Positions 4,466 through 50,530 of a stretch of 64,000 bases of DNA are shown in pieces. The translations under genes and the position numbers were made by a program. Source of the stretch: Macrocystis pyrifera (lineage: Eukaryota; Sar; Phaeophyceae; Laminariales; Laminariaceae); assembly GCA_031763025.1 (NCBI GenBank), contig JASSKH010000014.1, forward strand, positions 10,034,563 through 10,098,562, read 5' to 3'. The notes under the pieces are model-generated. The model was not told the DNA's origin, made no database searches, and was given only the letters and a program-made list of their open reading frames with translations. The stretch's first letter is position 1; every line of letters starts with the position of its first letter.

Positions 4466-4470
4466 TAGTA

Positions 4471-6165: not shown

Positions 6166-6334
6166 TATGAACACCTAGGGATTGCGGTACCTGTTACTTT
6201 TTATACCGCGGTGTTTTTATATTGACGTCAAGAACGTCCGACATTGACCGCTGACACTGATCCATCCCCCCCGCACGTCGTCTACCGTTACTTGTTACCG
6301 TTGCGCTTTCGTCCCGTTTTGCTTTTGTCGAGAG

Positions 6335-6597: not shown

Positions 6598-9500
6598 GTG
6601 AGTCAGTAAGCCAGCCGCCTGCTCTTCATATGCGAGACGCTATATACCAGTTCTACCCTTGCCGGTACCGCTGCTGCAACCGCTATATGCTGCTAACTCG
6701 AATTACACTGCTGTGGACAGCAATATATGTTTCGCCTTTGGTATTCATAGTTATACTCTAACGGTGCTTGCATTGCTGTTCAGCGTGATATTCCACACGT
6801 CGAGAGGGTGGATGGTGGGTACCCGCCAGCAGGAACACTACTGTAGCAATGGTTCCTCTCGCATAGTGCCGGTATGTATGTCCCAGCCAACAATACCGGC
6901 ACTAAGTATAGCGGTAACCGGCACTATTTACTCCGCACACTGCCACGCTAGCTGTTATTAGTATTACGGGGGACCATAGTAAATGGGACCAAAATTTGTT
7001 CGTAAAAAAAAGGTAAATTATACAGGTTTTTGTGCGTACCATAGTCATATTTACTATGCTCCCCCGTAATGGTTCGTCCCATCTGTACCAAGCGATTTCA
7101 CAGGCGCTCTACGAGCGGGCACCTACCTTCCTGATCGCTGGTTTATGGAACCGCGCTCCCTGGTGGGGAGTGTTGAGCGATTCGGAGTACACGCGACGCA
7201 CACGCCCGGTATTAAACATATATACCCGGCAGGTACATTTTTTCGGTTGTGTCATTCGAGTGACTCTCTTTAACTTACTGCTGTGAGGGGGTTAACTCTT
7301 TTTAGTACCGCAGTCCCGTTTTGGGGACAGATCACTTGGAATTAGAATGGTTTGTCCCCAAATCGGGACTGCGGTACCAGAGGGGTCAAAGCGTCGTTTT
7401 GGTCACTTTTTCTGCACGGGGAGTGTATTCCTGATGAAACAAACCCCTCTTGTTGCTATTACGGGGGTCCATAGTTAATAGGACCTATGGTATACATAAA
7501 AACCTATATATTTAACTATTTTTACTAACAATATTTGGTCCTATTTACTATGGTCCCCCGTAATACGTACCGGAAAATTAAATCCCACACTAATTCCAAG
7601 TAGATATTACCCCGAAAACGTTGGTCCAGTTTCGAAAGGGAGTAGTAAGACCAACTATTTTGGGAAATTATTTTCTGAGCTCTCAGAGCTGGGGTTTTAG
7701 GCCGAACATACACGCGTTTCACTCGGCGGGAAAGCCAAAAACACCGATGGCCTCCTCAAAATGCTCCCCGTAGTTTTTTGCGAGCTTTCAGGAACAATTT
7801 CCCGTTTCTCCAGAGTCCTGATTTTAATTTTGGAGCAGCCAATCACTTTTCTCTGGAGGGTCAGAAATAAGGCTGTTGTTCAGAACTGGGGCCGGAAATA
7901 GCGGATCTTCGAAGATTTTTGATGAAAAATCACGATGTCCTCAGAACTGGAAATATCGACGAACAGTCCAACTATGGCTCTGGAGGAACGGAAAAATGCT
8001 CGAGAAAGCTCTCGGAAAACTGAGGGGAGCATCCTGAGGTGTCTACCGGTGTTTTTGACAGTCCCGTCGAGTAAATCGCCGGTTTTCGGCAAAAAAAAGC
8101 CCGTTCTGAGACCCCTTAAAAAATTCCCATATTAGTTGGTCCAAGTGCAAGATCGTAATCAGTACGAAGAAAAATAATTGCAATTTCGTTGTGACCGACG
8201 GATTTGCCCGTGCATGTCAAACCCCCGCGAAAGGGCTGATTTCTAGCGACACGCGATCGTCAGGGGACATCCGCGGTTCATCCCCAGTTTTACCCCCCTC
8301 TGTATATATATATGGATGTGCCGGTAGACATGAACGATATGCAAAAGCGAGCGTATATATACGTAGTTTTCATTCGTCCGTCGTTCCCACGCTAATTCCA
8401 AGTAAATTTTCCCTACGTACTTGGGTGCAGTTCTAATTTGATCGGGAATATAATATCCGTTTGATGTCCACATCGGGGCCCAAGCAGGTACTATATTCCC
8501 GGCCAGAGTCATCGGAGGGGTTTTTTGGTCAACGGCGACCGTTTTTTGTATTTTGTTCAAGTATTTTTTTTGTTTTGGAATCATCCGGCGGATTGTGGGA
8601 AAAAAAGCCTGAGCTCCACCGACTTCCGTCCACATGTGAAATATATATTTTTTGTGTGGTAAACAGTTCGAGCAGTTTCAGCCTGAGCACTGAAGGCAGC
8701 GGGAGCGCGGTGGAGCCTAAAATGTTCGAGGTGGACTACGGCAGCGGAAGTGTTTTGGGCATGGAGGGGTCGGATGACGTCACTCTCGCCGGCCTGGGGC
8801 TGTCGCAAGTGCTCTTCGGCCTCGTCATCTACGAGGACCAGCAGGTGACGAGAGTGGCGAATGGACGGAGCGGCGTCTGGCCGCCTTGTCTGCACCTTTC
8901 AACCGGTGATGTATGGCCTCTGGAGCGAGAAAATGATTGAGGGTCACATAGTGTACGAGACGAACGGAGGCAAACCCTAACCCCCCCTCATCCAATCAGA
9001 CCAGCCCTCATCCCTGACCCGAAGGCCAATCAGGCCAAATGTCGAATTATTAGTAGTTGCGAGCTCGTCTGGGCCTCTGGAGGCATCCATCCATATTAGG
9101 AATGTCCGACGTCGCGGGTTGAAAGGTGGTGCGGCAGTGGGCGTCCCGAGGTACATGGCACACTGCGGATCGCCGAAACGAGCATGTTGCGGGTGTCTGC
9201 AGAAGGAATTGCGGAAGCCTGAGCTCGATTATCGGATTGGACACCATGTTACGGAGTACAGAGTCAAACTGGGCAGACATCATCCAAACTGCTTCTTGAC
9301 TTCTGGCTTCTGGCTTCTTGACTATTAATAGACACTGCTTTTGCCTGTAGTGGGCATTTATTTAGCCTTTTGGTCTAGGCGGGGGATATGCTGATTTGGC
9401 CACCGTAAGTCCCGTTTTTTTTTTTTTTTAATCTTGGGTGCTCTTTAACACGTGGAATCCACTGGTGTGTGTTCAGGTATGCATGCGACAAACAAACCTG

Positions 9501-12500
9501 CTGGGGACGTACGTACATCACCGTGTAAAAAGAGACTCTTGTCTTTTTGTGCCTGACGGTGCTTCTGCGAATCCTCCTGTCTAACCGATTGAGGTGATGA
9601 ATACATATTCATCCTGAGAAATTTCTGTTAGATTGTGATCGGGAACAAATATGACGAGTAAAAATACTGTAATATAGAAGTTTTTGTGTGTATGATGGGC
9701 TCTGATTACGATGGTCCCCCGTAGCCTTGAAACCTCAACTCTTTCGTTGATCTTGCTGTTGTTACAGCAGTCTGTCTTAGTTGTGCTCATAGATTCACTT
9801 TCAAAGACGTTCGGGCGTGGCATGACCCCCCTGCCGTTCGCCGCTCTGTCTCCCTCGTGCCTCCCCAGATCCGAAGCTTCATGATGGACGGCATCGCGGG
9901 ACTCGCGTTCTCGGGGCTTAGCATGGTGACCTCACCGACTCTGTTGGAGATTCTTCACCGAGACCACCCGGAAGTACCCAACATCTTCAGCGTCTACCTC
10001 TCGTGCGACCCTTCCGACACGTGAGTTCTTTTCGGTCTGGTCGAAGATAATATTGACGAGAGGGCGGCGGTTTGACCCCTTTTGGCTGACAGCCCCCACA
10101 CACTAAAAATGGGACGTTTAGGCCGAAAGATGGTTTGACGCGTCAAACGATGACAGGAGACCACCGTTTGAGTTTTGACCTCTTTGTATATGTATCCAAG
10201 CCGAAGTAGCAAATATGCCAGGAGACTGCGGTTTGACCCCTTGGCTGGTCGGGCCCCACATAAAAATCAAGATAGTAAATCAATAAGCTAGGAGACCGCG
10301 GTTTGACACCCACCGTGACTGACGACCCCGTACGCTAAAACTATTGTAGTAAGCTAGCTAATATGCTACGTAGGTGACCGCGGTTTGACCCGATGACCGA
10401 CCCCCCCTGCACTGAAACGACAGTAGTATAGTAAGCAAATATGCTACGAACGAGACCGCGGTTTGACCCCGTAACGGACGGTCCCCTACACTGAAACTAC
10501 CATAGCAAGCTAGCATGCTAGGAGACCGCGGTTTGACCCCGTGACTGACCGCCCCCTACAACATAATTACGGCAGTATAATACGGCAAACTAATATGGTA
10601 GGAGACCACGGTTCGACGCCTTGACTGACCGCTCGCATATATACACTAGAGCTAGTGCAGTAAGCTATTACTGCGGTGTCATAAGACATCGGACCGCGCG
10701 ACACCAATACCTGATACACTGCTTGTTTTGATTTTTTCGGCCTGATTGCATTGTGATCATGTCCCTCGTACACACTCGCCTTTCTTTTTTTCTGGAAACC
10801 CCGTTTGGCGTCGTTTTTTTCCTGTCCCATGCCCCCTGTCCCCTGCTCTCTACATTCACTGGAAACCCCGTTCGGCGTCGGTTGCGGCTGTCCCCTGTCT
10901 CTTTATTTTTGCCTCTTTGTTAACCCCTCGTTCTGCTAGGGAGAATCCTAGCCATATGCTTTTTGGGAGCTACGACCTCGATATTGTGGCGAAAAACGCT
11001 TCCTGGCACTACACTCCGGTCATCAGGCACTCGCACGGCCAGCTTCGGTACGCACCTCCCTCCCCGCCCTCCGCGGTGGTTGTTGCATTCGTGGACTTTT
11101 ATAGTGCAGCCGGCAGCATTTTTAGTGTTTGTTTTCGGACTTGAAAGCTTACACGTAAAGGCTTCACTTTTTTGTGCGAGTAGCGCGCGTGTTGTTGAGC
11201 TTGTGTTCGCGCGTGCACGCGTGCTTTTGATTGTTCTGCAATGCTATTGACTTTTGTGTGAGCTTTCACGCCTCTGTTGGTGCGGTCGGATGCTGCTCAT
11301 CGAGAGTTGGCGCCTTTTTTTGCTCTCTCCAGTGCCGTTCACTGATATCATAAAAAGTTTATCCATAACATACGAAGAATACCCATAGATGCGCTCTTTT
11401 GTTGAAGCCTGTTTTGTGACCGCAGGCTGTTACGGGTAGTTCTTTTTCGTTCAGGCAAAGGAGCTGAGTATATAATTGTCCTCATCATCATATTATTCGT
11501 GCATTACAGGGGAACATACAGTAGCAATCAGAACCATATATGCTTGGCGAAAACATTGGAGTATGTAGTTTTTTTTGGGGGGATATAATGGGTCCTCATT
11601 ATAAATACTATGGTTGCGTAGTGGTAGATATTTGTATGTACCTATTTCCTTTCGCTGATCGTTTTCTGTGCCTTTGGTTTTCGGGTCTGTACAGACTTTC
11701 AAAATATCTACGGCTGCTGATTCACAGGCCTTTGTTTTTTTTTTTTTTAGATGCCACAAAACGTCGTCGATTTTTGTAGCTCTCGTCACCCCCACATCCG
11801 AATGCCTATGAAGGGAAACCTCGTAGACTAAGCATATTACTTATACCGGTATATATATATATGTCCATGTACGTATATCATTCGTGTTCATGTACGTACC
11901 CATACGAAGTCCTTCCAAATATCCGTATCCCCGTACATAGATACTGGACGGTGAAGATGACGGGGATGAACGTGGTGACGAGCACTCCACTTCCCGTCAT
12001 GGACACCGCAGTGGACGCAGAGGAGGAGGTAGAGCTTCGGGAGGATGGGGAGGTGGGGGGAGAGGGGAGGCCTGATCAAGCGGACACCGGCGACGAACGT
12101 TACGAGATCCCTCTCTTCGGTGGCGGCACGGGCGAGGAGGATAACCTGTGTTCTTCTGGGTGCTACGCCATTGTCGACACTGGAACATCAGGTGAGCGTG
12201 CCGCCAAATTGCGTTAGATATCGTATCGAAAGTTTCGATATATTTCGATGTATCGAAAGTTCCGATATATCGAAATATCGAAAATTCGATATGTCGTACG
12301 CTCCCCCCAGCCTTCCGGTGTCAACGATGGCGTAGCACCCAGAAGGACACAGGTTATCGATACGGTATATCATTAGTATCGATATATGGAAATATCCAAA
12401 GTACTTTGACACCCTGACGCCCCCCCCCCCCCCCCCCCCCCCCCCCCCGCCCCCCCCTTCTTATCTGGGCAACAACGCCTCTTCGCTTTCGCAGCACAGT

Positions 12501-15500
12501 CGGTGCCCAGGTATTGACACTGTAGCGCAGGCAACCAACGACTTTTCCCCCTTTGATCGCTGCTCTCCATACAATATGCCGCAGGTATCGCGGTGCCCGA
12601 GGAGTACTTCTACGTCCTGACAGCGCAAATCGCGGAAGCTAGCGGCGCAGAGTGCAAGTCGACCACGTGCTACGGAACGAAAGCTTCGGACTTCCCAGAC
12701 CTCGTGAGCAAAGCGCGCGCGCCTCGTGCCGGCTCAGCCCGTTTCGGACACTTTTTAAGGAATATATACTTGGTATATATATACATAGCGACCAAATCAT
12801 GGTACAATGGTTGGTAGCGTTGCTGTTATCAACCATCTAGGAGCACCCAGACGTAGTAGGGGTAGGATAATGTTGCGCCCGTACCGTGCGATTGCTTGCA
12901 TTCAAACCGCTGTAACTCGGACGCCAACTTGCATCAATCCCCCAATCGGCAATCACGCCGTCGCGGTTGCCGTGATCGTCCCTTTTTTTCTTCACCTTCA
13001 GTTTTTTTCCTATCAAGTCCCCAGAGGGTTCTTACTATAACCCCCACTTTTTCTGGGCTCGAACTGCTTGAAACTACGGTGGGATCACTTTTTTTAGTAC
13101 AGTGCAAGCCCAAGAATAAGAAATAAGCCTTTTTAAAATGAACGCGAGGCTCTTTTTGGGCGGAACAGCCAAGAAAATCGGATTAATGAATCGTTCTCAG
13201 CTGCGACCTCGCAGCTACACTATATCCCATACAGTAGCCTATGCTCAATGTTGTTCATGGACGGTGTCACACATAAGGTTGAGGGCGTGTCCAAACGTAA
13301 ATCGAGAATCGAAATCGAAAATCGAAAATCGAAATCGAAAATCGAAATGATAGTACGAAAATCGAAATCGATAATCGAAATGATAGTAAACTTGGCGCTG
13401 ATTGGTCCAGGGCGCAAACATGTCCCCCTTCGTTTTTTACGTTCCGAGATAATGAACGACTTACCGGCCCAATGCCAAAATCAAAAAGTTGACAGCAGGA
13501 AATCGAAAAGCAAATCGAAAACACGAACAGCAACAATTCAGCGCGTGCTACTGGTCACCGCAGCCAGGTCGAAATATCACATCAGAACCGCCGTACACAA
13601 GATCAAATCCACAGCTAGCACGGCAACACAGCCGCACAGACCCCCCGTGAACAGCCAGCAGGCGAACCGCAACACCAGCCCGACATTATCCGGCCTTTGT
13701 GTCCCGGCGTTCGAGCCAGAGCGAATATAGGTTGAGGAAAATTCAGGATGATGCCCTCGAGAACGAGGTCGGAAGTTCGTTCTCAAAATAATTTCAAGTT
13801 TGATCCCGGGGCGTCAACGCTGGACGCGCCACCACCTCCATGGGAGGCCCAACGACCTCCCGGAATCGAATTGCCGTCGCGTTTGCCTGCTTCTGTGGTG
13901 GATCTGTGTTGCCGAGCGCTAGATTGTCGGCATGTGTGCACAGTTGCGAACGGCCCCGAAAAGGCTGTGCTTTCCGTTGCTTTTCGCTTGGATTTCTGTT
14001 TCCTCTTTTCGATCCTGTTTGGACACCTGGGCTAATTTTTTTTCGAAATCGAATTGAAGTCGATTTTCGATTTTCGATTTCGCTTTTCGGTTCTGCTCGG
14101 ACTCGCCCCAAGAGGTTTCTGCTCATATCAGGCGTTTCTTCTTGGCGGACACCATACTGTAGGAAAGTGTGGCGTTGTGAAAAAAAACTTAACACCAGTA
14201 CCCCTTTTGACTTGATTATAGTATAGCAACCTACAGTATAATATATTTTTTGTTGGCGGGCACCATGTACCAACTGTAGGAAAGTGTCGCGTTCTGCGAA
14301 AAGCAGTAACACCGTTAAGTCTCTTGACACTTCGCGAGCCGGCGAGAGAAGAAAGGGCCTGAAATCTTCTCGTGATAAAAATGAAGGCGCGAACCGTAGG
14401 GGGGAAGAAGAGGGAGGAGGGATTCGCTACTCGTACGTGACACCGGATCTGAGTCACGAGTACTTTATAGAGGAAGGAGATAGAAAAGGAGGGCGAAGAT
14501 AATAAACGGGAATAAAAAAAAAAAAAAAAAGCATAAGTTATCATGGCATACCAGGCTGCAGCCTAAAAAGCCGTATAAGTCTCGCATGGTCGTAGGATAG
14601 GAGTAACTTTTTTTTGTACGTAACCCCTCCCAAAAAACGCCTTTAACCCATGTGGGACCCCCAAGACGGCGACGAAAGACAACGGTTGGTATCGTCGGTG
14701 TTTGCTGATCAGCCGTTTACGGGCGCAGCGCACAGCGATACAGCAGTGTACGGATATATCACTCTGACCCAAAACGTAAAGAACTTTTGGACTTGATTAT
14801 TTACATGCTAGCTGCCCCTATATTTTGGGTCAGGCTGGGTTCGCCTGAGTGTCTGTACGGTGGGTGTCCCGGCTCAAGAGAGGGCACGCTATTAATCAGA
14901 AAATACAGTACTGATACTACTCAAGCAGGAGCCAAATCGGCTGGACCCGCCTATAGACTAAAGCTATACATGACATCCCACCGTAGATAGGAGAGAAGGC
15001 GATTAGGGGGACCATGGTGAGTGGGACCAAACATTGTAGGTAAAAAATGGGTAAACATCTATGTTTTTTTCGTGCACCGTAGGTCCTATTTACTATGGTC
15101 TTCCGTGATAGTCAAGAGAGGCGTTTTCAGGATGTACCATACCTCTCTTAGCCCTTTTCGAACCGCAGTCCCGTTTTGGTGACAAAATGGTTAGAATTAG
15201 AGTGGTTTGTGCCCTTAAGGAGACTGCAGTCCTACGTAAAAGGCTCAAGTCGGGGTACCCGCTGCTGTGGCGAGAACGATGGTGCGACACGAGTAGAACA
15301 TGCCGTAAATAGCGTTGAGTTCGCTTGCAGGGGTGGCAATCGTTTCTTCGGCGCTCGATTTTTTCCCGGAACGGGAAGGTTTCCATTATCGAACAAGAAG
15401 GGAGGCGTTTTCGGAAGATCTGGTCGAGAGAGAGAGCGATACCCGGTAGAGAAGAGAGCCTTCCGTTCCGCAAATAGAGTGTGTTCGTCTTTTGGCACCC

Positions 15501-16332
15501 TCACCGCTGTAAAAACTAAATGAGCGCCGAAAAAACGATTGTGTACCCCTGTGCGAATTCAACGCTATTTACCGTAATGCAGGGGAACCTGCTATTACGG
15601 AGGTCTGTCTATAGTTAACAGGACCTATGGCATACATAAAATCCTATATATTTAGGTATTTTTACTAACAATATTTGGTCCTGTTTACTATGGTCCCCCG
15701 TTTACTATGGTCCCCCGTAGTAGTCTATTAACATCACGGGGAACCATAGTAAATAGGACCTACGGTATACGCAAAAACCCTTTATATTTCCGTACTTTTG
15801 GTAACAATATTTGGTCCTATTAACTATGGCCCGCCGTAACAGTGATGAGGACCCAATGTGGTGTGTGTATACATGGAGCAGTAGAGGGGGATACGTGGGT
15901 GGTTTATTTACTATGGGTCTTAGCCCGGGTGCTGTATTTTTGTATTCGTTTGTGTTTTTCTTTTTATTTCATCCTCCGGCGGATTGGTAAAAAAAAAGCA
16001 AAAAGCTTGAGCTCACCACACTTACACGTTTAGAACACGTGTCGCGTGTCAGCCTGACCCGTCGCCGCTCCCGTTGTTGTTGTTGTTGGTGGTGGTGGTG
16101 GTGGTGTTTTCTTTTTTTTCAAGTGGGTTCTGATTGTTATGTGCCCTGGTACCCAATTTCCGGGTAGTTGGTCGGTTGAGAAGCTCCGCCCCGGTGACTT
16201 AACGTTTCCGTCAAAAATTGCTGCTCGTACCTCAAGGAAACCCGTATACCCTGATCGTGCGTCGTTTCCACACTCGATACGTACTGGCGGTAGTTGCGGG
16301 GTCCGACGGACGAGCTGCCTCGTCTCGCCGTG

Positions 16333-16363
<31 letters not shown>

Positions 16364-18796
16364 GCCTTCCCCTTCCAGGTGCTGGAGCTGGACCCGTCGA
16401 AACACGGGTTGTTATTGACAGCTATTAGTTAATACCTACCTGGTACCTACCAATCTGGCCGGAAATATAGGGATCGTTCAGACAGTACTATGAAGACCGA
16501 GCGATCGTTGTATTTGCGCCCAGAGTTTTACTCCCAGAGTAGTGCCGTTGGTGTTGTCACATTTACTCTCAAATGAAGGATTCCGTGGAGCTCTATCCCT
16601 TTTAGTACTGCAGTCCCGATTTGGGGACAAATCACTTGGAATTAGACTGGTTTGTCCCCAAATCGGGACTGCGGTATTGAAGGGGTTAAGGGGCTGGAGA
16701 CCTATTAACAGGAAGATCCGAGAAGCCACAAAAAGTCGAAATTCGGCTGCCTAAAATAAAAATACACGAGACGAAGAAGGCACACACAAGATAAAATCAA
16801 TGTGCAAGCTGAATTAACATGGCCGCGGATATATCCTCTCAACTACAGCGCAGAGTTTCCCCCGTTCCCTCAACTACTGACCAACTCGTGGCTACCGACT
16901 ACCAGCGGTTGCTGTCTGGAGTGCTGCCTGTACCGTACGAAACGCACGGGAGTCGTGAACACAGAGAGGAACACGCCTCCTTACTGTATGGGGTGCTTGC
17001 TATCAAGAGTGACGAACTCGCGGACATGCAGTGAAAAAGGAACAATCGAATCAAGAACCACCCACCACACAAGCATCAACGATCGCCATCTCTTGCCGGA
17101 CTGTCAGACAAAGGCGCAGCACAGCTATGATACCACGTCCCTGATAATTGCGAGGGTCATTCCCCATGAAGGGTATACAACTCGCCAACACTAAAAAAGG
17201 CCAGTGGCGTAAATAACAAGCACCAGGTACATACTACTGCCTGGTGAAAAACCAAGCCAGAAAAAAAACGACGACTGCTTCTCTCGTGATGGCGTGCGCG
17301 CCGGTCATGGGTCTCCGTGTGCCGTCCTGCTGCCGTTTTTCATGGCCGCCTCATCGCCTTACCCCAATCGGCCCGCTCCTTTGCACGTGCTCTCGTTGCC
17401 ACTCCCTTCCAGTCGGTTCCCTTTCTCCCCCGTCTCGAAAAACGAAGTGCTCCTCGCACTCGCGGTTCTGATCTGAAGAACAAAGATTCTGGGGCAGGGT
17501 GAGTTCAATCCGCCTCTTCCCCCCTCGTCGACGCTCTGTCTCCCTCCTCCTTCGTCGTCGAATCCAGCCTCCTACCGGCGCAATAGACTGTGCCTTAGTC
17601 TGGCCTGTGGTGGCGCCTGCCTCCGCGCGCGAACATCCCGATTGAGCATTGCTGCTCTGCCGCTGCTGCCTTACAATAGATGCGCGAATCGTAGGTGTCC
17701 GTGCCTGACGCACCACGTACGACCCAAATCTACCACCACGAGTAAATCTCGCGGCCCCACGCAGCAGCAGGAAGGTATCACTCCTTGAGGGTGAGTCCGG
17801 CCTTGAAACCCCCAGAAAGACCAACCCCCCTCTCTATGAGCCTGATAGGGCATGCCTCACAGCATGCCTTGCCGAGGCAGCGAGGGGAACGGAGAAGTAT
17901 GTACCCCTGAAATACTTTCCCGACCCGATTTTCCTCCGAAACACCACTCTGACCGAAACTTTGAGTTCCGTTCGATGTTCACACTACTGCATCCTGTTTT
18001 CACGATAAAAACACCCCCTTGGACGGATTTAAGACCCGGTTTCCTCCAAAACGTGGCGGGCACACACAACGAAATTATTACGGGGGTCCATAGTTAACAG
18101 GACCTATGGTGTACATAAAAACCTATATATTTACCTATTTTTACTAACAAAATTTGGTCCCGTTAACTATGGACCCCCGTAATAGTGGCCCTGGAAATAT
18201 TTCGTGGAGAAGGTTGCATAGACACTTCGCTCGGTGTACTCAGTACGCCCTCCCCGTTGTCGAGACATCGCATTGTCTTACCACCCGGGTGATATTTCTT
18301 ATCATCCGGGTGATAGCGTCATACGGGACCAATCTGGACCCTATCACCCGGGTGATAGTGTCATACGTTACCAATCTGGACCGAAATGTAAGGGCCTTCT
18401 AGACATCGGTATTCATACTATTACAGGGGTCCATCGTTAATAGGGGACCTATGGTATACATAAAAAAAACAACTATATATTCACCTTTTTTATGAACAAT
18501 AGTTGGTCCTGTTTACTATGGTCCCCCCGTAATAAGCGGTCCTTACTTGTATTTACGGCGTCAGATTCTGAACGGTGATTGTATTCCCCGGACAATTATC
18601 TAGACGCCTCGCTCGCTCTCCCCGTTTTTTGTTCAGAAAACCGGCTTTTGCTCGAACGTTCGTCGGAGGAGGGGATGGGGTGCACTATATTTGTTGCGGG
18701 TTACACGGGCGAGCGTCAGTGTCGCGTGCCTACCACACCGAAAAAATGCGTTGTTGTCCCGCTTATTTACCGCCCTGTTGCTTCGCCGCGGTACCG

Positions 18797-18844
<48 letters not shown>

Positions 18845-19379
18845 ACCCCCCCCCCGTCTTCCCAGATGCTGGAGCTATACCCGTCGAACAAGTTTCTCCT
18901 TCGAGGAGAAGACTACACCCGTCTGCAGTCGCTGGGGTGTCTGCGTGATCAAGCTGCAGCCGAGCTTCGGGGGGGAGTTCTGGATCCTGGGAGACGTTTT
19001 CATAGAGGTAAGAGGGGGAGAGACTCGAGGAAGGTTTTCGTCGAGGGGGGCGTGGGATGGGGGGCGGCGCGAAAAGACAATCGGCTCAAAAAAATGGGGG
19101 GGGGGGGGGGGGGGGGGGTGTACTCGATAGGAGAGATGTACTCGATCTCATGCATGGCCGTAGTCGTATGACCATAGACCCTCGCATCCCTACAATGCCG
19201 GGACGGAGCATGTCGGGTTTTCACCGACCAGGCAGACATTGCTTGCACCAAGCGCGAAGCGCCGTGAGGTGTCCGGCGAGTCGCATGAAGGTTGAGCTGC
19301 ATCCTACTAAGAACCGCTTGTGAGGCGGACTTGCATATGGATGACAGCTTCAATGAGTTAGTTTAATTTCCGGTGTGGC

Positions 19380-19418
<39 letters not shown>

Positions 19419-20904
19419 GGGGGGGAGGGCAGGGATTATTTTGGTTGTTGCTGGTTGTTTAGACTGGTTGTGTAGTTTTTGGTTTTAATACGTGCGTAAA
19501 AAAATATTCCACGCTTTTTCCAAGCAGTTTATCCCAAACAATGGGGGCGCGGTTGAACGTGAAAGGGTTGCTTTGTGCGATGGTTGACTGGACATACGTG
19601 GGCGGTTGATGTTTTCTTCTTTCATGAATACCTGGCATACTGTTTCTGCTATTACGGGGGTCCATATAAATAGGACTAAATTTTGTTAGTAAAAATAGGT
19701 AAATATATAGGTTTTATGTATACCATAGGTCCTGTTAACTACGGACCCCCGTAATAGAAGACAAGCAACCAGACGCGCGCGGCTGCTCACACTAGATATA
19801 GTATTTGATGCTTTTGTCGGTCGGTCGGTCGGTCGTTTGGTTGTTCGTCGGTCTGTTCGGCGTCGACGCGGGCTAGATTTTGGCGGTGAGTTAATGTGAG
19901 AACAAATACGACAACAATAACAGTATTTTTTTGTTAGCACATCCTGGTTTTCATGCGTCTACCTCTCCCCCCCCTCTCGTGCGTGAACTATCTACGACAG
20001 GCTTACTACACGCTGTTCGACGTGGACAACCTTAGGGTGGGGTTCGCGTGCACAGGGAGCGGGTGCTCGGGGGGGACGTGGCACGGGCAAGGCGGCTTCA
20101 TGGAGATTGAAGACAGATCTTCTTGGCGAAGGTATGCTTGTTTTCAATTTCAAGTACGAAGATTAGAGTTGTCGCTGTTTGTGATGGAAGACAGAATGTC
20201 ACCCCACGACGAAAAATCAACTCTCACCTTATGGCCGATTCTTACACCGACGTTATTGAAAAAAAAATTGGAACGAATGTCGATTGCCGCGTGGAAACCC
20301 TCAGCTGCGTCTCGACGACATTGTCGGTGATGGCGTACTGTCTCTTGTCGACGGGCTATCTCCTTTTCCTCGTCCCCCCACCCCTGGGTGTCTCTTGCCA
20401 TGTGGAAACCCCCAGCCAAGTCTCCACGATGTGCTTGGTGGTGTGCATCGTGTCTCTGGTCGGGTTTCTACCTTCTCATCCTCACCCCCCCTCCTCCCGA
20501 CTGTCGCCTGCCGTGTGGAAACCCTCAGCTACGTCTCCACGATATCGTTTCTTGTGTGCATCGTATCGGCGGGCTATCTTCTCTTGACCTACGCGGGACC
20601 CGTCTATCACCGTGTCGTGTCTCGGCGAGGCTACTCCACCATCACCGGAACAGCAACAGCAACAGCAACAGCAACCACGCAGGAAACCCGGGTTGGGGGG
20701 GATGGGGGCAGCAGCGCTTCCGTGCAGTCGGACGGAGCTACTACTTCTGTTGCCGGGGGCTCTTTTGGTCGTTCTGGCCAGGAGCAGGAGGTGGCGGGGG
20801 GTAGCAGGGGTGGGGGTCCTTTACCAGGGGGTGGCTGGAGAGCGTATGGGTCGACGGACGAGGCTCCCGCCGGCGCGGGTTGTTTACCTCCTGCGGCTAG
20901 ATGA
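6335..20904 (+). CDS. membrane-anchored pepsin-family aspartic protease (gene span, nine exons)
   Basis: An A1-family aspartyl endopeptidase, which cleaves peptide bonds with two catalytic Asp residues. Exons at 6335-6597, 8667-8844, 9869-10020, 10940-11047, 11941-12191, 12585-12703, 18866-19007, 20001-20131 and 20529-20904 join in phase with GT-AG borders to give about 573 residues. Visible landmarks are the first active site DTGSSDLW, flap tyrosine DYGSGSV, DGIAGLAF, second active site IVDTGTSG, FWILGDVF and the end strand LFDVDNLRVGFA. A hydrophobic segment and a Gly/Ser/Thr-rich tail follow, so the enzyme is probably anchored with its catalytic part in the secretory lumen or outside; that placement is inferred. 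An acidic insert (EEEVELREDGEVGGEG) lies before the second Asp. The signal peptide is not found; an exon upstream of 6.3 kb is presumably unrecognised. One base too many in the seventh exon disrupts the frame. Confidence 0.85.
6964..7069. mobile_element. family A MITE
   Basis: Arms TTACGGGGGACCATAG and CTATGCTCCCCCGTAA, inside protease intron 1. Left flank TA. Confidence 0.8.
7291..7388. mobile_element. family B MITE
   Basis: Inverted arms AGTACCGCAGTCCCG and CGGGACTGCGGTAC are perfect over about 14 bp, inside outer ends GTTAACTC and GGGGTCAA. The core is GGAATTAGAATGG. About 98 bp, non-coding. Confidence 0.8.
7459..7563. mobile_element. family A MITE with unlike arms
   Basis: The left arm is the GGGGGTCCATAGTTAA form and the right arm the TTTACTATGGTCCCCC form, bounded by TA. 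Inside protease intron 1. Confidence 0.8.
8667..8844 (+). CDS. protease exon with the flap tyrosine
   Basis: Reads SSSFSLSTEGSG, then MFEVDYGSGSV, and VTLAGLGLSQVLFGLVIYE. The pepsin flap Tyr codon is at 8737-8739. The first base completes the Ile codon split by intron 1. The exon ends in phase 0 at CAG|GTGACG. Confidence 0.85.
8845..9868 (+). other. protease intron 2
   Basis: GT-AG intron of about 1.0 kb. It holds a half-size, degenerate family A relative at 9,665-9,724 and otherwise nothing I recognise. Confidence 0.6.
9665..9724. mobile_element. degenerate family A element
   Basis: Only the AT-rich core (TTTTTGTGTGTATGATGGG) and the right tip ATGGTCCCCCGTA are readable; the left arm is too diverged to place. 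Confidence 0.4.
9869..10020 (+). CDS. protease exon DGIAGLAF
   Basis: Encodes IRSFMMDGIAGLAFSGLSMV and EVPNIFSVYLSCDPSD. The DGIxGL block is a pepsin-family signature behind the active site. Acceptor CCCCAG, phase 0; donor GACAC|GTGAGT, phase 2. Confidence 0.88.
10021..10939 (+). other. protease intron 3
   Basis: GT-AG intron of 919 bp, about two thirds of it a minisatellite with units of 70-80 bp. The remainder (10,690-10,939) is T-rich and repeats GGAAACCCCGTT-GGCGTCG twice. Confidence 0.7.
10060..10665 (+). repeat. tandem repeat, unit about 75-80 bp
   Basis: GAGACCGCGGTTTGACCCC and close variants recur about every 70-80 bp (near 10,153, 10,219, 10,291, 10,371, 10,452, 10,530 and 10,601). 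Between them stand GACCGCCCCCTACACT and TAAGCTAGCTAATATG words. Confidence 0.85.
10940..11047 (+). CDS. protease exon MLFGSYD
   Basis: Encodes ENPSHMLFGSYDLDIVAKN and WHYTPVIRHSHGQLR. It matches the pepsin strand 'xLxFGxxD' followed by a W-x-x-x-PV segment. It starts by completing the Thr codon left by the previous exon and ends in phase 2 at CTTCG|GTACGC. Confidence 0.85.
11048..11940 (+). other. protease intron 4
   Basis: GT-AG intron of 893 bp. A weak family G-like stretch (CAATCAGAACC to TATAATGGGTCC) lies near 11,526-11,600. No gene is seen. Confidence 0.6.
11941..12191 (+). CDS. protease exon with second catalytic Asp
   Basis: Encodes YWTVKMTGMNVVTSTPLPVM, an acidic Gly-rich insert, and SSGCYAIVDTGTSG. 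The second catalytic Asp codon is at 12176-12178. The insert of about 40 residues between the 'VxMxGM' strand and the active site is longer than in secreted pepsins and is probably a surface loop. Donor TCAG|GTGAGC, phase 1. Confidence 0.88.
12313..12358 (-). repeat. inverted copy of the catalytic exon segment
   Basis: Reverse-complement match to 12140-12185, the exon stretch coding DNLC-SGCYAIVDTG. I count 42 of 46 matching bases; all four differences are transitions, three of them silent in the protein frame. The two arms are separated by about 127 bases that include the exon's own splice donor at 12,192. Confidence 0.85.
12421..12448 (+). repeat. C homopolymer, about 28 bases
   Basis: Nearly pure C run, followed after one G by seven more C, in protease intron 5 upstream of the acceptor. 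Confidence 0.9.
12585..12703 (+). CDS. protease exon after the second Asp
   Basis: Encodes IAVPEEYFYVLTAQIAEASG and CKSTTCYGTKASDFPDL. The two Cys in CKSTTC fit the conserved disulphide of this region. Starts by completing the Gly codon of DTGTSG; ends in phase 0 at CTC|GTGAGC. Confidence 0.85.
12805..12912. repeat. family F repeat
   Basis: TTGCTGTTATCAACCATCTA, an AATGTTGCGCCCGTACCG block and GCATTCAAACC correspond to the block at 30,385-30,510. No inverted ends seen; nature unknown. Confidence 0.5.
13297..13395. repeat. AATCGAAA-rich array, left arm
   Basis: Tandem AATCGAAA/AATCGAAATG units. A shorter cluster follows at 13,498-13,522, and the reverse complement appears at 14,040-14,090. 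Confidence 0.75.
14040..14090. repeat. TTTCGATT-rich array, right arm
   Basis: Reverse complement of the 13.3-kb array, about 650 bp to its right. The pair could fold back or be the ends of a foldback-type element; no insertion-site duplication could be shown. Confidence 0.6.
14145..14315 (+). repeat. two-copy tandem duplication
   Basis: GGCGGACACCAT-ACTGTAGGAAAGTGT is repeated about 115 bp later as GGCGGGCACCATGTACCAACTGTAGG. Both are followed by CGTTGTGAAAA or CGTTCTGCGAAAA and TAACACC. Confidence 0.7.
14630..14765. repeat. family F repeat, divergent
   Basis: Shares TGGGACCCCC-AGA and an ACGGTTGGT-TCG-GGT block with the region near 30,360-30,420. Borders are uncertain. Confidence 0.4.
15003..15108. 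mobile_element. family A MITE
   Basis: Arms TTAGGGGGACCATGG and CTATGGTCTTCCGTGA; both tips have drifted from the usual TTACGGGGG. Confidence 0.7.
15148..15249. mobile_element. family B MITE
   Basis: Arms AACCGCAGTCCCGTTT and AGACTGCAGTCCTACGTA around TTAGAATTAGAGTGGTTTG. More diverged than the 7.3-kb copy. Confidence 0.65.
15300..15583. mobile_element. family E inverted-repeat element, about 280 bp
   Basis: Ends CCGTAAATAGCGTTGAGTTCGC and GCGAATTCAACGCTATTTACGG-type are inverted repeats of about 20 bp. The core has GGCGCTCGATTTTTTCC, a CCCGGAACGGGAAGGTTTC block and AGAGAGAGAGC. Related copies lie near 29.1 and 31.3 kb. Confidence 0.75.
15595..15720. mobile_element. family A MITE with duplicated right tip
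   Basis: The right arm TTTACTATGGTCCCCCGT occurs twice in tandem, making this copy about 20 bp longer than its relatives. The left arm is ACGGAGGTCTGTCTATAG. Confidence 0.75.
15733..15839. mobile_element. family A MITE
   Basis: Arms TCACGGGGAACCATAG and CTATGGCCCGCCGTAA. It follows the preceding copy after only 12 bp. Confidence 0.75.
16076..16104 (+). repeat. GTT/GGT microsatellite
   Basis: Four to five GTT units run straight into about six GGT units. Confidence 0.8.
16336..16363 (+). repeat. C homopolymer, about 28 bases
   Basis: Pure C run ending 15 bases before the acceptor of the decoy exon, where a polypyrimidine tract would lie. Confidence 0.9.
16379..16432 (+). pseudogene. decoy copy of the seventh protease exon
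   Basis: CCTTCCAG is followed by codons for VLELDPSK, nearly the same as MLELYPSN at the start of the true exon (18,866). After about eight codons the match ends and the frame reaches a stop at 16,430. Like the true exon it is phase 0 and sits behind a long C run. If spliced in, it would cut the protease off before WILGD and the membrane anchor. It could be a dead fragment or a regulated poison exon; only transcripts would tell. Confidence 0.7.
16593..16690. mobile_element. family B MITE
   Basis: Arms TACTGCAGTCCCGATTTGG and CCAAATCGGGACTGCGGTA are nearly perfect inverted repeats. The core TCACTTGGAATTAGA is identical to the 7.3-kb copy. Confidence 0.8.
16691..18070 (+). other. no gene recognised inside protease intron 6
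   Basis: A 71-codon frame starts at 16,819 (MAADISSQLQRRVSP) and a GC-rich Arg-rich minus-strand frame covers 17,351-17,824. Neither shows a family motif, splice partner or repeat identity, so both stay unassigned. Confidence 0.4.
18078..18182. mobile_element. family A MITE with matching arms
   Basis: Both arms are the GGGGGTCCATAGTTAAC form, giving an almost perfect inverted repeat of about 28 bp. Flanked by TA. Confidence 0.85.
18271..18400 (+). repeat. short direct and inverted repeats around CACCCGGGTGATA
   Basis: The palindrome CACCCGGGTG appears at about 18,281 and 18,345, with related ATCCGGGTGATAG between. TACCAATCTGGACC is repeated nearby. Confidence 0.6.
18421..18532. mobile_element. 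family A MITE
   Basis: Left arm TTACAGGGGTCCATCG and right arm ACTATGGTCCCCCCGTAA around ACCTATGGTATACATAAA. Confidence 0.75.
18798..18855 (+). repeat. C homopolymer, 47 bases plus 10
   Basis: Forty-seven C, one A, then ten more C, ending ten bases before the acceptor AG of the seventh protease exon. It is the longest homopolymer in the window and occupies the polypyrimidine-tract position. Confidence 0.9.
18866..19007 (+). CDS. protease exon with WILGDVF, one-base frame break
   Basis: Begins MLELYPSNKFLLRGEDYT in phase with the previous exon and ends KLQPSFGGEFWILGDVFIE in phase with the next, but the two halves lie in different frames. The exon is 142 nt, one more than a multiple of three. 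The switch must fall in TCGCTGGGGTGTCTGCGTG, most simply as one surplus base in the GGGG run. Either this copy is inactivated or the base is a sequencing error. WILGD is the conserved pepsin motif before the last lobe strands. Confidence 0.8.
19096..19366 (+). repeat. family D repeat with G run
   Basis: A G run (19,096-19,118) is followed by TGTACTCGATCTCATGCATG, ACCATAGACCCTCGCATCCC, AAGCGCGAAGCGCCGTGAG and GGATGACAGCTTCAATGAG. Read on the other strand it is a unit of about 245 bp ending in a C tail. Best-preserved copy, together with that at 54.0 kb. Confidence 0.75.
19384..19417 (+). repeat. G homopolymer, about 34 bases
   Basis: Follows the family D copy by about 17 bp, inside protease intron 7. 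Confidence 0.9.
19652..19754. mobile_element. family A MITE
   Basis: Arms TTACGGGGGTCCATA and ACTACGGACCCCCGTAA, TA-flanked. A few bases of the left arm are missing. Confidence 0.8.
19821..19845 (+). repeat. GTCG tetranucleotide microsatellite
   Basis: About five GTCG units in protease intron 7. Confidence 0.75.
20001..20131 (+). CDS. protease exon LFDVDNLRVGFA
   Basis: Encodes AYYTLFDVDNLRVGFACTGS, then a Gly/Ser-rich stretch and GGFMEIEDRSSWRR. The YTLFDxDxxRVGFA strand is the typical end of the pepsin fold. Acceptor TACGACAG, phase 0; donor CGAAG|GTATGC, phase 2. Confidence 0.88.
20305..20376 (+). repeat. transmembrane-exon copy 1
   Basis: AACCCTCAG is followed in the right phase by codons for CVSTTLSVMAYCLLSTGYLL, a membrane-length hydrophobic run. 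The frame stays open through copy 2 and stops at about 20,587. Confidence 0.7.
20416..20487 (+). repeat. transmembrane-exon copy 2
   Basis: AACCCCCAG is followed in phase by QVSTMCLVVCIVSLVGFLPS, again hydrophobic. It lies 111 bp after copy 1 and in the same frame. Its downstream frame gives a short, different tail ending at about 20,587. Confidence 0.7.
20529..20904 (+). CDS. protease last exon: membrane anchor and tail
   Basis: AACCCTCAG leads into YVSTISFLVCIVSAGYLLLT, a 20-residue membrane segment, then VYHRVVSRRGYST, an Ala-Thr run, a Gly/Ser-rich stretch and the stop TGA at 20902-20904. The basic residues after the hydrophobic run suggest a type I protein with a cytosolic tail of about 100 residues. 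The phase fits the previous exon (AG plus C gives Ser). Confidence 0.75.
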
Positions 20905-21164: not shown

Positions 21165-21425
21165 GGGTGTACCCATTGCCATGCGTGGCCGAAGTCGTAT
21201 GGCCATAGATCCTCGCATCCCTACAATGCCGGGACGGAGCACGTCGGGATTTCACCGACCAGACACACATTGCTTGAACCAAAACGCAAAGCGCCGTGAG
21301 GTGTTCGGCGAGTCGCACGAAGGGTGCGCTGCATTTTCTAAGAGCCGCTTGTCGGGCGAACTTCGACATCTTGTGCGTGCTTTCTTGCATATGGGTGACA
21401 GCGTTGAGCGAGTCGACGGGGCTCG
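21165..21425 (+). repeat. family D repeat
   Basis: GGTGTACCCATTGCCATGCG, CATAGATCCTCGCATCCC, ATGCCGGGACGGAGCACGTC and AACGCAAAGCGCCGTGAGGT follow the order of the 19.1-kb copy. No long G run here. Confidence 0.7.
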
Positions 21426-30700: not shown

Positions 30701-33700
30701 GCGGACTATACATCGAGGCGCGAGAAGAACATGGGTGCTGCTCGTACGGAAGGAAGTAAGCCCATCAGACCAACGCAACGTAAGGTATAATTTTGGACAG
30801 TTGTGGCCGTGAGCACAGCGGGTCAAATCGTAGGATATAACTGACTTGTGAGCGTAGCACGCGGCGGGGCAGAGCCAGCGCGGCATAGCTAATTTTCCTG
30901 AGGTTTAGCGCGCGGTCATGAATCAGGCTCAATCTCCTGATTGGCGCTACGTACTGTGCGGGGTAAGATGTTATCATGTTTATTACCCCGCTTAGGCCAA
31001 CTTGGCGAGTGACGTTGTGCCTCACTCAAAGTTAGGCTTGAAATCATATGTTGGCGTACCACAACCCATGGCAGTGCATAATATCACGAAACCAGAAAGC
31101 AAAGAAGCCCAAGACACGAATAAGAGGGTAAAGTCACGCGGTCAAGCGACTCCCTGTGAGGCTTAGAAACAAGCCGAACCTAAAAGTGACTCCACCTCTC
31201 AGCATTGTAGGGATGCGAGGGTCTATGGCCACACATACAACCACTACGGTCATGCATGACATGAGGTGTGGTAAAGAGCGCTGACTTGGCAGAGGGGTGC
31301 CGTTCGTTTTTCAGCGCTACATGCTGATAGTTTTCTAGACAGCGGTAAAGGTGCTAGAGTCGAACATAATATTTTCGGAAGGCTCTCACTCGACCAGACC
31401 TTTCCGAAATCACCTCATTCGGTTCTTGTTCGGTATTGCCAACCTTCCTTCCCCTTCCGGACAGATCGAGCGCTGAAAAAAACGGTCACCACTCCTGTAT
31501 GTAAAGCGAACTCAACGCTCTTTAGGTACACCCCCTCCCTCCCGCCTCCTGTTGTTGGAAGAAAGTAAAATAAAAAACACAATTCCTCGAGGTGCGCCTG
31601 CCTGCCTGCCTGCCTGCCTGCCTGCTTGCGAGACAGGCCGCCTCCGGTGAGACGATCGCGCGTACGTTATTTCCCGCGAGCGTGGCTGCTTCAAAGATGA
31701 TTATGTACGGGATGAATGAGTAAATCCGCAAGCTATATAGCTCAGCCTCTTTTCATCTCACAGAGGCCGTCAGAAAAAAAGTTGCTTTTCGGTTTCCAGA
31801 GAGAAAGACAAAACTGGTGATTTTTCAAGAAAATCTGAAACAGTGAACACGTCGTTATGGCCGGTAGATAACCCTTGCACTAGCAACACTGCCAAAACCT
31901 TCCTACACTATTTTCAAGTAAATTGGCCCAAAAAAAATGGTTTGCTGTGCTGAAGGGGTTATGGTGGCGAGGTTTTAGCTAGGTAGCAGAGCACGTTGAG
32001 GCACTACGGCACAAGCTCGACTATTGTGGAGGTTGTATCAGGTTACTCTTGATCTAGCACGCGTGTTGGTGTCATATTAGCTCTGCCTTGCCTCTCCAGA
32101 TGCTCCTGAGAGAGAGGGACAACACTCCACTTCCATGAAATATACTTATAACAGTAATGCCTCCACAAAAATCTAGCACGCGCGTTGGTGTCATATTATT
32201 ACGGGGGACCATAGTAAATAGGACCAAACATTTCTGGTAAAAATACGTTAATGTATTGGTTTTTATGTGTACCATAGGTCCTATTAACTATGGACCCCCG
32301 TAATAGCTCTCCCTTGCCTCTCCAGATGCTCCTGAGAGAGAGGGACAACACTCCTCTTCCATGAAATCTAGTTGTAACAGTAATGCCTCCACAAAAATAC
32401 AGGGGAAACGGGGATGCCATGGCACGGCACCACCGTACGGCGCCGGGGGCGGGGGGGGGGGGGAGTGCTACTGAAAGGGGGGGGAAATCACGAGCAAATA
32501 TGTCATACCTCGGACAAACCACAATCTAGATCATCTGTATCATCTATATCATCTGTATCATCTAGATTATCTCTATCATCTGTATCATCTAGATCCTATG
32601 CTTCTGTTGTGAGATGTTGTGGACGATCTGTAGAGTACAGACCCAACCCAGGCAACGAATCCTAGATCGCGCAGGTTTATTCGGCCCCCATCCGTCAACA
32701 TGAGCTAGATCATCGTACAAATAAGGCGTAAACCTGCCCTAAACGATCTAGGTAGATCACGAAGTAGGAACCGATGATCAAAACTATCTGTTTGATTTGT
32801 AGATGATCAACCTGATTTGTGAAACATTTATTGAAGAATGCATGCTACGGTAGGAGTGCACCGGGATTTGTCTGAGGTTCCTGACTTGATGAGCTCGCTA
32901 ACCCGCTCGTATCTGACTTCGACAAAAATGTTTGGTCAATCCGACGAGCCACGCGACCTTAGGTACACAAAACGAAAAATGCAAAAAAACATAGTGGGTG
33001 GTCTCTCAGTTGTGGCCAAAAAGTGCTACCCGTATTGTAAGCACGCCTCAGATAGCGACACAAACAAATATTGCCCCATAAGGCAGCAGCCAAGATAATT
33101 TAACGCCTGGATTTGCGCAGGACACCACCTCAAGAGGAGGGTGCAGGGGTTCCATACTTTAAGCCGCAGGGCAACCGACCAGTGTCGAGTGCCCTGCCTC
33201 TCTTAGTAAAATCAGTTCCGTGTGCTCAAGGCCTGTCTGCTCTTGATTAAGCGACCCGCACCCGAAAGAAGTCTCTCGCTCATGGCGGCTCGAGTCTCCC
33301 ACTTTCCCACTGGAGACAACCGATGGAGCTTCTCAGCTCAAGATCTTCCCGATGTCGTATATTGGCTTATTGTCTCCGCCACGTGCCTTTGCCATGGGCT
33401 TCTTCATGGCGTTGCACATTTACTATTGTTCGAAGTCAGGCTTTCAGCCGACTCTAATGAGTGTTCTTTAACGAAGAGTCTCAGAACACCCAGGCGCACC
33501 TATTACGGGGGTCTATAGTTAACAGGACCTATGGCATACATAAAAACCTATATATTTAGGTATTTTTACTAACAATATTTGGTCCTGTTATCTATGGACC
33601 CCCGCAATAGCTCCACTATATACCAGGATACCAGGTAGGTTCTTAGTAAAATGGTAGGATCCAGCTCACACCCTTAATGAAGACCCGGCGAGAACCTCAC

Positions 33701-36700
33701 TCGTGCTACGACGGGAATCGTAGCATCTTTAGGGCAAGAAAACTCCGACTGACTAGTAGTAGTCTCCTTGGTCCGATATAGTTGGAACACCATAAGTCTA
33801 GAGTTTTATTGTATTGTTCTTGATAAACCTAGGCTTCGGGAAGATTCATCCGGGTTGCACTGTTTAGTTTTGCTCAAAATTCGTTTTGTGCCCTCAGAAA
33901 AAGTGAATGGTACATATACCCTTACCGTCCATTCTAGGGATGCGAGGGTCCATGGCCAAAACGACTACGGCTATGCATGGCAGTGAGCTTCCCCCCCCCA
34001 GGTCTCCGTTTTAGGGTCAGTGCTCGGTGAGCGGTTTCTGCCTTACGTAAAAGGACCACATCTGTGATTGTAGGATGGGGACAACTAGAGGGCGCCGGAG
34101 GGGGCAGGGCGGCTTAGATTGAGTTGGCGGGTGACTTCGTCAACCTCGCTGCTACAATAATTGACGGTAGCGTTCGTCCAGCCTACCTTCGGGGGCGGCG
34201 TCTTTCTCGTTCAGTCGTAGGATGTCCGCATGGTCGCGGATGAGGGCCAGCGCTCGTTTCACGCCCGCAGCCTCCCCGCGCACCTGGCGGAGCGACAGGG
34301 TGGGCGCGCAGTTACGAGAAGGTTGCGAGTAAGAATAGAGGGAGGTATGGTTTCTCGGGTCCATCGTAGTGATTGATTCCCCCCGTAGGACCTGGTAACA
34401 TTTGGGGGGAAAGCCCTCAGGGTACACGCTCAGCGACCGTGCTCCTCGAAAGGACCAGGGCTGGCATGTTCATGTTGGTCGCGTACACACACCGAAAAAG
34501 TGGCCAATCGTACTGCTTGCGCCATTGAAACTAACTAGCTCCCGCCGCCACCAGACGGAACGGTTTACGAACAATTGTTGTGTTCGACGGCTTTCAGGAT
34601 CGTCTACGACAGGGTGCCGAAAAGAAAAGCCCTGTCTATCTACAACTTGAGAGGGTTTTGGTTTTTACCGTAGCGTCGTAGTAGTCCAGCTCTGCCTTGC
34701 GATACGCCGCGTGCAGGTGCTGTGAATCCCGCAAGACGCAGGATGCGTGACACAGCGGGAAAGGGGAGGGGGGGGGGGGGGGGGTACTCAATAGGAGAGA
34801 TTTACTCGATCTCATGCATGGCTGTAGTCTTATGACCATAGACCCTCGCATCCCTACAATGCCGGGACGGAGCGTACTCATATCATGCATGACCGTAGTA
34901 TGGCCATAGATCTACCCATGCCAATAAATACGGGACAGAGCACGTCGGGTTTTTACCGATCAGACGGACATTACTTGCACCAAGCGCGAAGCGCCATGAG
35001 GTGGTCGGCGAGTTGCATGAAGGGCGAGCTGCCTTTTACTAAGCACCGCTTGTGAGGCAGACATTCTTGAATACGGATGGCATAGTCGAAGGCACTCGGG
35101 GGGTGCGGGGGGGGATTAAATGGCGTACGTCTATCCGTACTACTGCTCATGCCCCTGCCTGATGCGATGGAAATTAACGGAGCCGAGTTAAGCCTGTGCA
35201 CCGCACGAGATTCTCATTGCGCCCGCCCCTACTGCACATGATCAATCACTTCTAAATGTTTAGACAGGGCGGGTAGAGGATGGGACCGCGCGGAATTGTG
35301 GCCGCCTTGTTTAATGTTTTTTGTCCTTCGCAGGGTAAGGAAGAAGGCGAGAAAGGGGCGGACTTGACGACCCCTGCCGAGACGTCCCATGAATGGAGGA
35401 CAACACAGGTTCACAGGTGGCCGGGACCCCCCCCCCTGTACAGTGTTTGAGCATGGTAGCACACCGTCAAGCGTACTGAGAGGTTATCGACGCCTTTTTA
35501 TGGGGCTTTGCTACCTTGTTCAATGTCTCCACACGGATGCTTTTACGCCATCACTGTGCAGGAGGGAGAGCTCTCGGTCACCTGTGTTGTTGTTATCTCT
35601 GCTGCCGATGCATTCGCCGCGCGCAGGTCGGGAAGGGGTTCGCCTATCGTCGCGTTTTCCGGGCCGTTCTGGCTTTTTCCCCGAGCTGAGCCCGTTGCCA
35701 CCACATTCGTTGAAAGCAAGCTAGCCGTCGGTGATGTCGGGGGTAGCGACAGCCGTTGTGGCAGTCCCGCTGCAGAATGGACGTTGTGGGCGGTCGCTGT
35801 GTTGTTTTCGCGCGATTGGGTGGTGGAAAGTAGGGAGAAAAACGCGGAGCAATTGACAAGGGGGGAGGGTTTCTTGTGTTGCTGTCCTGAATTGGCAGTA
35901 GGCGATGGGGGTCTTTTGCTGCTGAACTTCATTGATAATAGTTGAATGGGTTCATCTGTTGCTGCGCTTTACTACACTGGGCATCGGGGTTCATTCGGTG
36001 CTGTCAATTGGCAATGGATGGTGGGGTTCGTTTGTTGTTGTGTTGTACTGTACGAGTACTTGATTTCCACTGAGTGATATGTGGTTGATTTGTCGCTGGT
36101 GCCGCTCGGGCGTCACAACCATAGCTGACGCCACTCCTTCCCTTTAATGCATGCTTAATAACGCACCGGAAACTTCCTTGCGATCGCTGGATCCCGTGTA
36201 CCATGACATTCGGTGTTGCGACGGTTCGCTTCCGTATTCCATGATACGATACCACTCAAAGATGGCTGCAGATGCGCAAGCCATGAAGGCATCTCATCGT
36301 TCAACGCAACCGATTTCACGCGGACATCGCATTTCTGGCTCCTATCGTAGACTCACGCATTTTATTATCCATTGACCTCACCCGCCTGCGCTCGGGTCGG
36401 CCTAAAAAATGATGGCCTCTACCTTGAAGTATTTCTATCTTTCCAATGTAAAGGGCGACTATGTACCAAAATGATCTCGGGAAAGTGGTAGCTTCACCGC
36501 GCAGCAGTCGCAACCAACCACGAGAGCCTCCCGACTTCGAGATCACATCACCTTTTCCAAGCGACGTTTCCTCTTCCGCATCCTTCCCTTTCCTCCGTAA
36601 ACCTCCATCTTGCCTCTCGACCCCCCCCCCCCCCTCCCCCCGCGACTGCGTGTACACCTCCCGCCAACTTACTCCCGCCTCCACTTCTTTTTTACCGTCA

Positions 36701-50295: not shown

Positions 50296-50530
50296 TCAAC
50301 AACATAAACCCTGACGTAAGATAATTGACGAAGGCCTTACCTGAAGGCCGAGCGACAGAAGTTCCGCAGCACTCTGCCCAGCGGTTTCGTCCTCCTTGCG
50401 GGCGAAGTCGTTCCCAGATAAATCGACGGTTTCAAGCGTTTCATTCGCACAGAGGGCGGCCGCGATCGCCTTGGCTCCGAGCGTCCGCAAACCCGCGTTG
50501 GTCATGTGAAAGCTCCTGTTGTGTCCCCCG

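Follow-up and report, generated by a model that had tools for sequence, protein, structure and literature searches.

Positions 10,034,563 to 10,098,562 of contig JASSKH010000014.1 of the giant kelp Macrocystis pyrifera (the window, 64,000 nucleotides, numbered here from its first base) carry on the forward strand a gene that is, judged by its sequence, an A1 (pepsin-like) aspartyl protease of family PF00026. Towards its 3′ end, a segment comprising a 3′ splice acceptor and the first codons of a hydrophobic stretch occurs three times in tandem. Copy 3 is probably the acceptor that is used, copies 1 and 2 being relics of the duplication, with copy 2 perhaps a minor site. The normal splice would join 20,131 to 20,529 and equip the protease with a single C-terminal membrane anchor followed by a long tail, and the two relics would lie within the last intron (20,132-20,528). 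This assignment draws on the pyrimidine tracts, the alignment gaps between the copies, the layout of a paralogue and a second, decayed duplication in the same gene.

Three tandem copies of an acceptor and exon start

A 14-base block, GTGGAAACCC(T/C)CAG, is found at 20,291-20,304, 20,402-20,415 and 20,515-20,528. The first exon bases are therefore 20,305, 20,416 and 20,529, and the copies are spaced by 111 and then 113 bases, the exact coordinates and spacings that the first-pass annotation, made from the letters of the window, had given. The repeat exceeds the block. It can be divided on the forward strand into unit 1 (20,274-20,384), unit 2 (20,385-20,497) and unit 3 (20,498-20,610, the 3′ limit being approximate); 51 bases are alignable in all three units and more between pairs. 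Over these 51 bases the identity to unit 1 is 69% for unit 2 and 84% for unit 3; between units 2 and 3 it is 77%, over a longer stretch of 81 bases. Local alignment scores of 49 (units 1 and 2), 62 (units 1 and 3) and 68 (units 2 and 3) are far above the maxima of 27, 27 and 29 obtained with 1000 dinucleotide shuffles each, which rules out a chance resemblance. The pattern would be explained by tandem duplication, to three copies, of a segment of about 111-113 bp that comprises the 3′ splice site and the beginning of the final coding exon; in copies 2 and 3 the duplicated segment would also carry the pyrimidine tract that precedes the site.

Two broader settings were considered and rejected. 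A wider array is excluded, since none of 20,132-20,273, 20,616-20,904 and 19,007-20,001 contains a fourth copy with a score exceeding that of shuffles. The assembly searched contains 537,376,219 bases in 223 contigs (the window is on the contig numbered C194), and 20,131-20,904 matches itself alone in this 537-Mb genome (E ≤ 0.001), which speaks against a dispersed repeat, the absence being a weak one given that the search's first look was loose. With the protein encoded by exon 8 (the exon upstream of the copies) and copy 3 as query, the genome yields eight matches at E ≤ 1, the best two of which are the query's own locus and the next of which has E = 0.09; this search missed an exon on contig C137 that tblastn on the C137 stretch gives at 1.6e-10.

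Reading frames and predicted membrane segments

Exon 8 (20,001-20,131, forward strand, reading AYYTLFDVDNLRVGFA..) has the donor GTATGC and ends in phase 2, so that each acceptor completes a serine codon and opens a hydrophobic frame. One donor is thus compatible in phase with all three acceptors, as had been claimed from the first inspection. Splicing to copy 1 would give a terminal peptide of 94 residues with two hydrophobic segments, and splicing to copy 2 one of 57 residues with a single segment; both close at a common stop at 20,587. The peptide from copy 3 would have 125 residues, one hydrophobic segment and a stop closing at 20,904. The earlier description, in which copies 1 and 2 share a frame to 20,587 and copy 3 leads to a separate long tail, therefore stands. 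In 19-residue stretches hydropathy peaks at 1.80, 2.18 and 2.02 for units 1, 2 and 3, values reached by 12, 4 and 10 of 2000 shuffles respectively. A C-terminal membrane segment is predicted after the catalytic domain for any of the copies, provided that the splice is made. Open frames of this kind are not unusual in random sequence: 303 of 2000 shuffles keep the frame of copies 1 and 2 open, and 66 of 2000 that of copy 3. Unspliced read-through past 20,132 is possible, in which case the frame stops at 20,330.

The relative frame of copies 2 and 3 is read across seven consecutive cytosines (C7; 20,485-20,491) near the end of unit 2. If the length of this run were misassembled, all copies would fall in one frame, and the proteins would end in a common tail preceded by three, two or one membrane segments, depending on the acceptor. 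In favour of this, copies 1 and 2 are in frame with each other as it stands, the 113-base spacing contains the run and would need one more base to be divisible by three, and a frame break lies beside a G run elsewhere in the gene. Further non-triplet gaps in the DNA alignments between copies argue against this explanation, which we regard as very improbable.

The tail of copy 3 (20,611-20,904, forward strand) includes ..RRGYSTI.. and is then of low complexity. Shuffling of its 25 codons recreates the GYxxΦ motif of this tail in 31 of 5000 trials and YxxΦ in 414 of 5000. A glycine preceding the tyrosine aids lysosomal recognition, and lysosomal signals lie 6-8 residues from the membrane, according to the accessible part of PMC4584282; the motif in the copy-3 tail is about 15 residues from it. 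YxxΦ is also not exclusive to copy 3, because the copy-1 peptide holds YCLL, YLLF and YRFL (identified by eye). A further reading, very improbable, makes the copies a nested ladder of three in-frame acceptors, giving a protease with three, two or one membrane segments, in which the odd or even count would set the side on which the tail and its sorting-like RRGYSTI motif lie and would so switch the destination of the protease.

Splice signals of the three copies

The signals of the copies were compared with those of the gene's own splice sites. The most pyrimidine-rich 15-base stretch within 60 bases upstream of the site has a count of 9 in copy 1 and of 14 in copies 2 and 3, the gene's seven inferred acceptors having 11-15. 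Among the 1833 YAG sites in the window, 84% have a count of at least 9 and 3.3% a count of at least 14. Copy 1 has no pyrimidine tract; it may have been lost or may never have been present. The acceptor of copy 2 is a good one that might be used at a low level, and copy 2 is a credible minor acceptor. Branch-like YTNAY sites within 60 bases number two for copy 3 (at -51 and -45) and none for copies 1 and 2, a contrast that is weak because three of the seven inferred acceptors (those of exons 2, 3 and 7) also have none.

Donor scores place copies 1 and 2 apart from ordinary exons. The gene's eight donors score 5.4-12.1, a range that a single GT in 20,305-20,528 reaches (20,441, 5.8); in the whole window 182 of 4226 GTs reach the level of the gene's weakest donor. 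Copies 1 and 2 have no strong donor and do not resemble independent exons. On this ground they are ruled out as cassette or mutually exclusive exons, the GT at 20,441 being just at the weakest level.

Mixed signs of coding retention in copies 1 and 2

Evidence on whether the first two copies are still maintained as coding sequence points both ways. Alignment of the DNA of the membrane part requires gaps of 3, 1 and 3 bases between units 2 and 3 and of 1, 3, 1 and 1 bases between units 1 and 2, some of them non-triplet. In codon alignments made by hand, third positions hold 5 of the 10 differences between copies 1 and 3 (14 codons) and 4 of the 10 between copies 1 and 2 (nine codons). Codon-position base composition prefers the expected frame in all three units, with scores of 0.10, -0.02 and 0.15 per codon for units 1, 2 and 3 and other frames at -0.12 to -0.40. 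As reference, the 5-95% range of 300 intron or intergenic windows is -0.51 to 0.01 and known exon windows have -0.03 to 0.51; the score of unit 2 is inside the non-coding range.

Paralogues in the genome

A genome search with the catalytic region gave at least 11 matches (17 candidates were scored, and the count is a lower bound), six of which are this gene's own exons. The five elsewhere comprise three on C137, one at C194:4,447,977 and one at C221:3,262,420. The closest paralogue found (locus L013, on C137) has its last part in one open frame (6,303-8,051), in which the end of the protease is followed, after about 33 residues, by a single strong membrane segment (..LACALIVSSVVLFVAGCALW.., peak hydropathy 2.61) and then by a tail of 271 residues. 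Hydropathy of 1.6 or more is otherwise reached in L013 just in a poly-alanine stretch before the second catalytic motif. This layout, one membrane pass and a long tail, is given by copy 3 only.

Weighing the use of the three acceptors

From the three copies the first-pass annotation had drawn the possibility of isoforms that pass the membrane once or twice and end in either of two tails. The copies, their phases, the hydrophobic runs and the two tails on which this proposal was built are all present; the isoforms themselves fare less well, given the tractless copy 1, the non-triplet gaps between units 1 and 2 and between units 2 and 3, and a paralogue layout that corresponds to copy 3. Regulated use of alternative acceptors, either of all three or of copies 2 and 3, we judge unlikely on the same grounds: copy 1 has no tract and the membrane segments of copies 1 and 2, and of 2 and 3, differ by gaps that change the frame. 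It does gain from the phase compatibility of all three acceptors with one donor, from the equally strong tracts of copies 2 and 3, from hydrophobicity retained three times, from the third-position lean between copies 2 and 3, and from the small number of AGs between the acceptors.

Several of these observations, with others, weigh directly against the assignment of copies 1 and 2 as relics and of copy 3 as the site in use. The tract of copy 2 equals that of copy 3 (14/15). All three membrane segments are hydrophobic in the phase of exon 8, which relics need not be. In the membrane stretch units 1 and 3 show a net difference of 6 bases that keeps the frame (a 25-base block at its end is spaced by 218 rather than 224 bases). 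Of the 10 differences that separate copies 2 and 3 in 13 codons, 7 are at third positions (binomial P 0.02, for the best of three pairs and uncorrected). Between the acceptors there are two AGs, one of them copy 2's own, against 6.0 expected, and 643 of 20,000 single-base shuffles have as few; AG-free gaps of at least 95 bases number 29 on this strand of the window, and four of them are consecutive here. Composition favours the frame of copy 3 until about 20,613-20,655 and then wanders between frames, and over the copy-3 tail the best score belongs to another frame, one with two stops. The yardstick for the splice signals, seven inferred acceptors and eight donors, comes from one gene alone with exons placed by eye. 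The paralogues add to this list. The C terminus of L013 does not align significantly with copies 3, 1 or 2 (150, 183 and 63 of 1000 shuffles are as good), so that it is its layout alone that supports copy 3. The relative at C194:4,447,977, in the frame observed, reaches a stop shortly past the catalytic domain, and that on C221 has a weak hydrophobic stretch (1.55) after the catalytic domain; a single membrane pass is thus found in one of three relatives.

We nevertheless infer that the splice to copy 3 is the probable one. If copies 1 and 2 are used, the gene would clearly illustrate how the copying of a splice site with its exon start can create alternative acceptors that alter the membrane anchor of a protease. 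If they are unused, duplications of an acceptor and exon start would have occurred at two places in one gene, one of them plainly decayed, and would represent raw material for new splicing.

Comparison with known systems

In duplicated mutually exclusive exons, an acceptor and a donor go with every copy. The kelp gene resembles them in that copies of an exon segment lie side by side and differs in that a strong donor is absent from copies 1 and 2. It also resembles tandem or alternative 3′ splice sites, with several AG acceptors in one intron that are compatible with one donor. Tandem splice sites are described as lying close together, for example 2-12 nucleotides apart, in the accessible parts of PMC8055015 and PMC2878309, whereas the kelp acceptors are 111 and 113 bases apart and would stem from the copying of an acceptor together with an exon start.

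The predicted protein has counterparts in other A1 proteases. As far as the accessible part of PMC3116508 goes, 9 of 12 groups of Phytophthora A1 proteases have one predicted membrane segment in a C-terminal extension (Table 3 of that paper). The predicted kelp protein shares with Phytophthora PxAP2, PxAP4 and PxAP6-12, human BACE and plasmepsin V a pepsin-like domain and, after it, a C-terminal extension in which a single membrane segment is predicted (PMC3116508). The C-terminal extensions of these membrane-anchored proteases align among orthologues only (PMC3116508). Unlike the kelp gene, the Phytophthora proteases are not described with duplicated acceptors in that part of the paper. The portions available of the literature on brown-algal aspartyl proteases, splicing and duplicated acceptors, including PMC10084794, contain nothing direct on this gene.

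Exon layout of the protease gene

Eight exons upstream of the acceptor triplet, all on the forward strand, were delimited by eye, with open frames, phase and GT/AG borders as guides. Exon 1 (6,431-6,597) has the putative start and the first catalytic motif (DTGSSDLW), ends in ..AT|GTGAGT and is matched by the genome search. Exon 2 (8,667-8,844) encodes a VDYGSGS segment; exons 3 (9,869-10,020) and 4 (10,940-11,047) follow. Exon 5 (11,941-12,191) holds the second catalytic motif (DTGTSG), exon 6 (12,585-12,703) has a phase 0 end (..SDFPDL), and exon 7 (18,866-19,007) precedes exon 8. The PF00026 profile matches exons 2-6 and the start of exon 7 with E = 3.5e-23 and a C-terminal piece with E = 3.4e-07, both passing the cut-off. 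Matches to solved structures involve 133 distinct sequences, with cathepsin E, pepsins, chymosins and renins among the matches listed. Both catalytic D[ST]G motifs are present, DTGSS at 6,518 and DTGTS at 12,176. Relatives of the protease were sought in viral contigs and in contigs of prokaryote genomes, and none was found there; Rfam and tRNA scans gave no match.

The exons do not form a single uninterrupted coding frame, owing to exon 7, in which the protease reading shifts frame near 18,931-18,937, next to a run of four guanines (G4). Taken at face value, the shift might mean that the gene is decaying in this strain, which would make C-terminal variants irrelevant since the break precedes the tail. 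We give this little credence, as the two catalytic motifs are intact, no other exon has its frame disrupted and the break adjoins the G4 run. The genome was assembled with Canu from PacBio reads and polished with Racon (PMC10498591, where 'polish' occurs once in the main text), and errors of a single base in runs would be plausible in such an assembly. A run-length error is plausible at the G4 run of exon 7 and likewise at the C7 run and the G runs of the tail. As the frames hang on run lengths and the composition wanders, the position of each tail end is uncertain.

A decayed copy in the same gene and local repeats

A copy of the exon 7 acceptor and exon start lies at 16,375-16,401 on the forward strand (27 bp at 89% identity, E = 1.3e-4 in the window). 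The coding part, from 16,379 (VLELDPSK..), is located in the 6.2-kb intron 12,704-18,865 and meets a stop after 17 codons. Counted with a C run, the copied stretch covers 16,358-16,401. Duplication of an acceptor together with an exon start thus seems to have occurred at two places in the gene, the copy at 16,379 being plainly decayed, and this lends support to copies 1 and 2 being relics. Tandem arrays abound in the window (44 overlapping rows), and a local duplication is therefore nothing unusual in this setting.

A C run directly precedes the exon 7 acceptor (18,798-18,855), and another lies before its decayed copy (16,336-16,363). Together with these two, C or G runs of 28-58 bases are found at 12,420-12,457, 19,384-19,429 and 50,525-50,561. 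Arrays with units of 94, 76 and 61 bp occupy 4,460-4,825, 37,736-38,062 and 47,120-47,648, respectively. A dispersed repeat of about 230 bp, with copies 77-95% alike, is present at 19,115-19,365, 21,180-21,363, 54,041-54,272, 42,974-43,200, 34,779-35,082, 36,974-37,212 and 53,903-53,997; the protease gene's last exons lie between two of its copies. Elements of about 110 bp with near-palindromic ends (TATTACGGGGGTCCATAGT..), which we take to be MITE-like (miniature inverted-repeat transposable element), occur in both orientations at 18,070-18,185 and 16 other places, two of them partial (examples are 7,457-7,565, 33,501-33,610 and 19,649-19,756). An open frame for a reverse transcriptase (PF00078, E = 1e-32) at 40,748-41,896 marks a retroelement copy or remnant.

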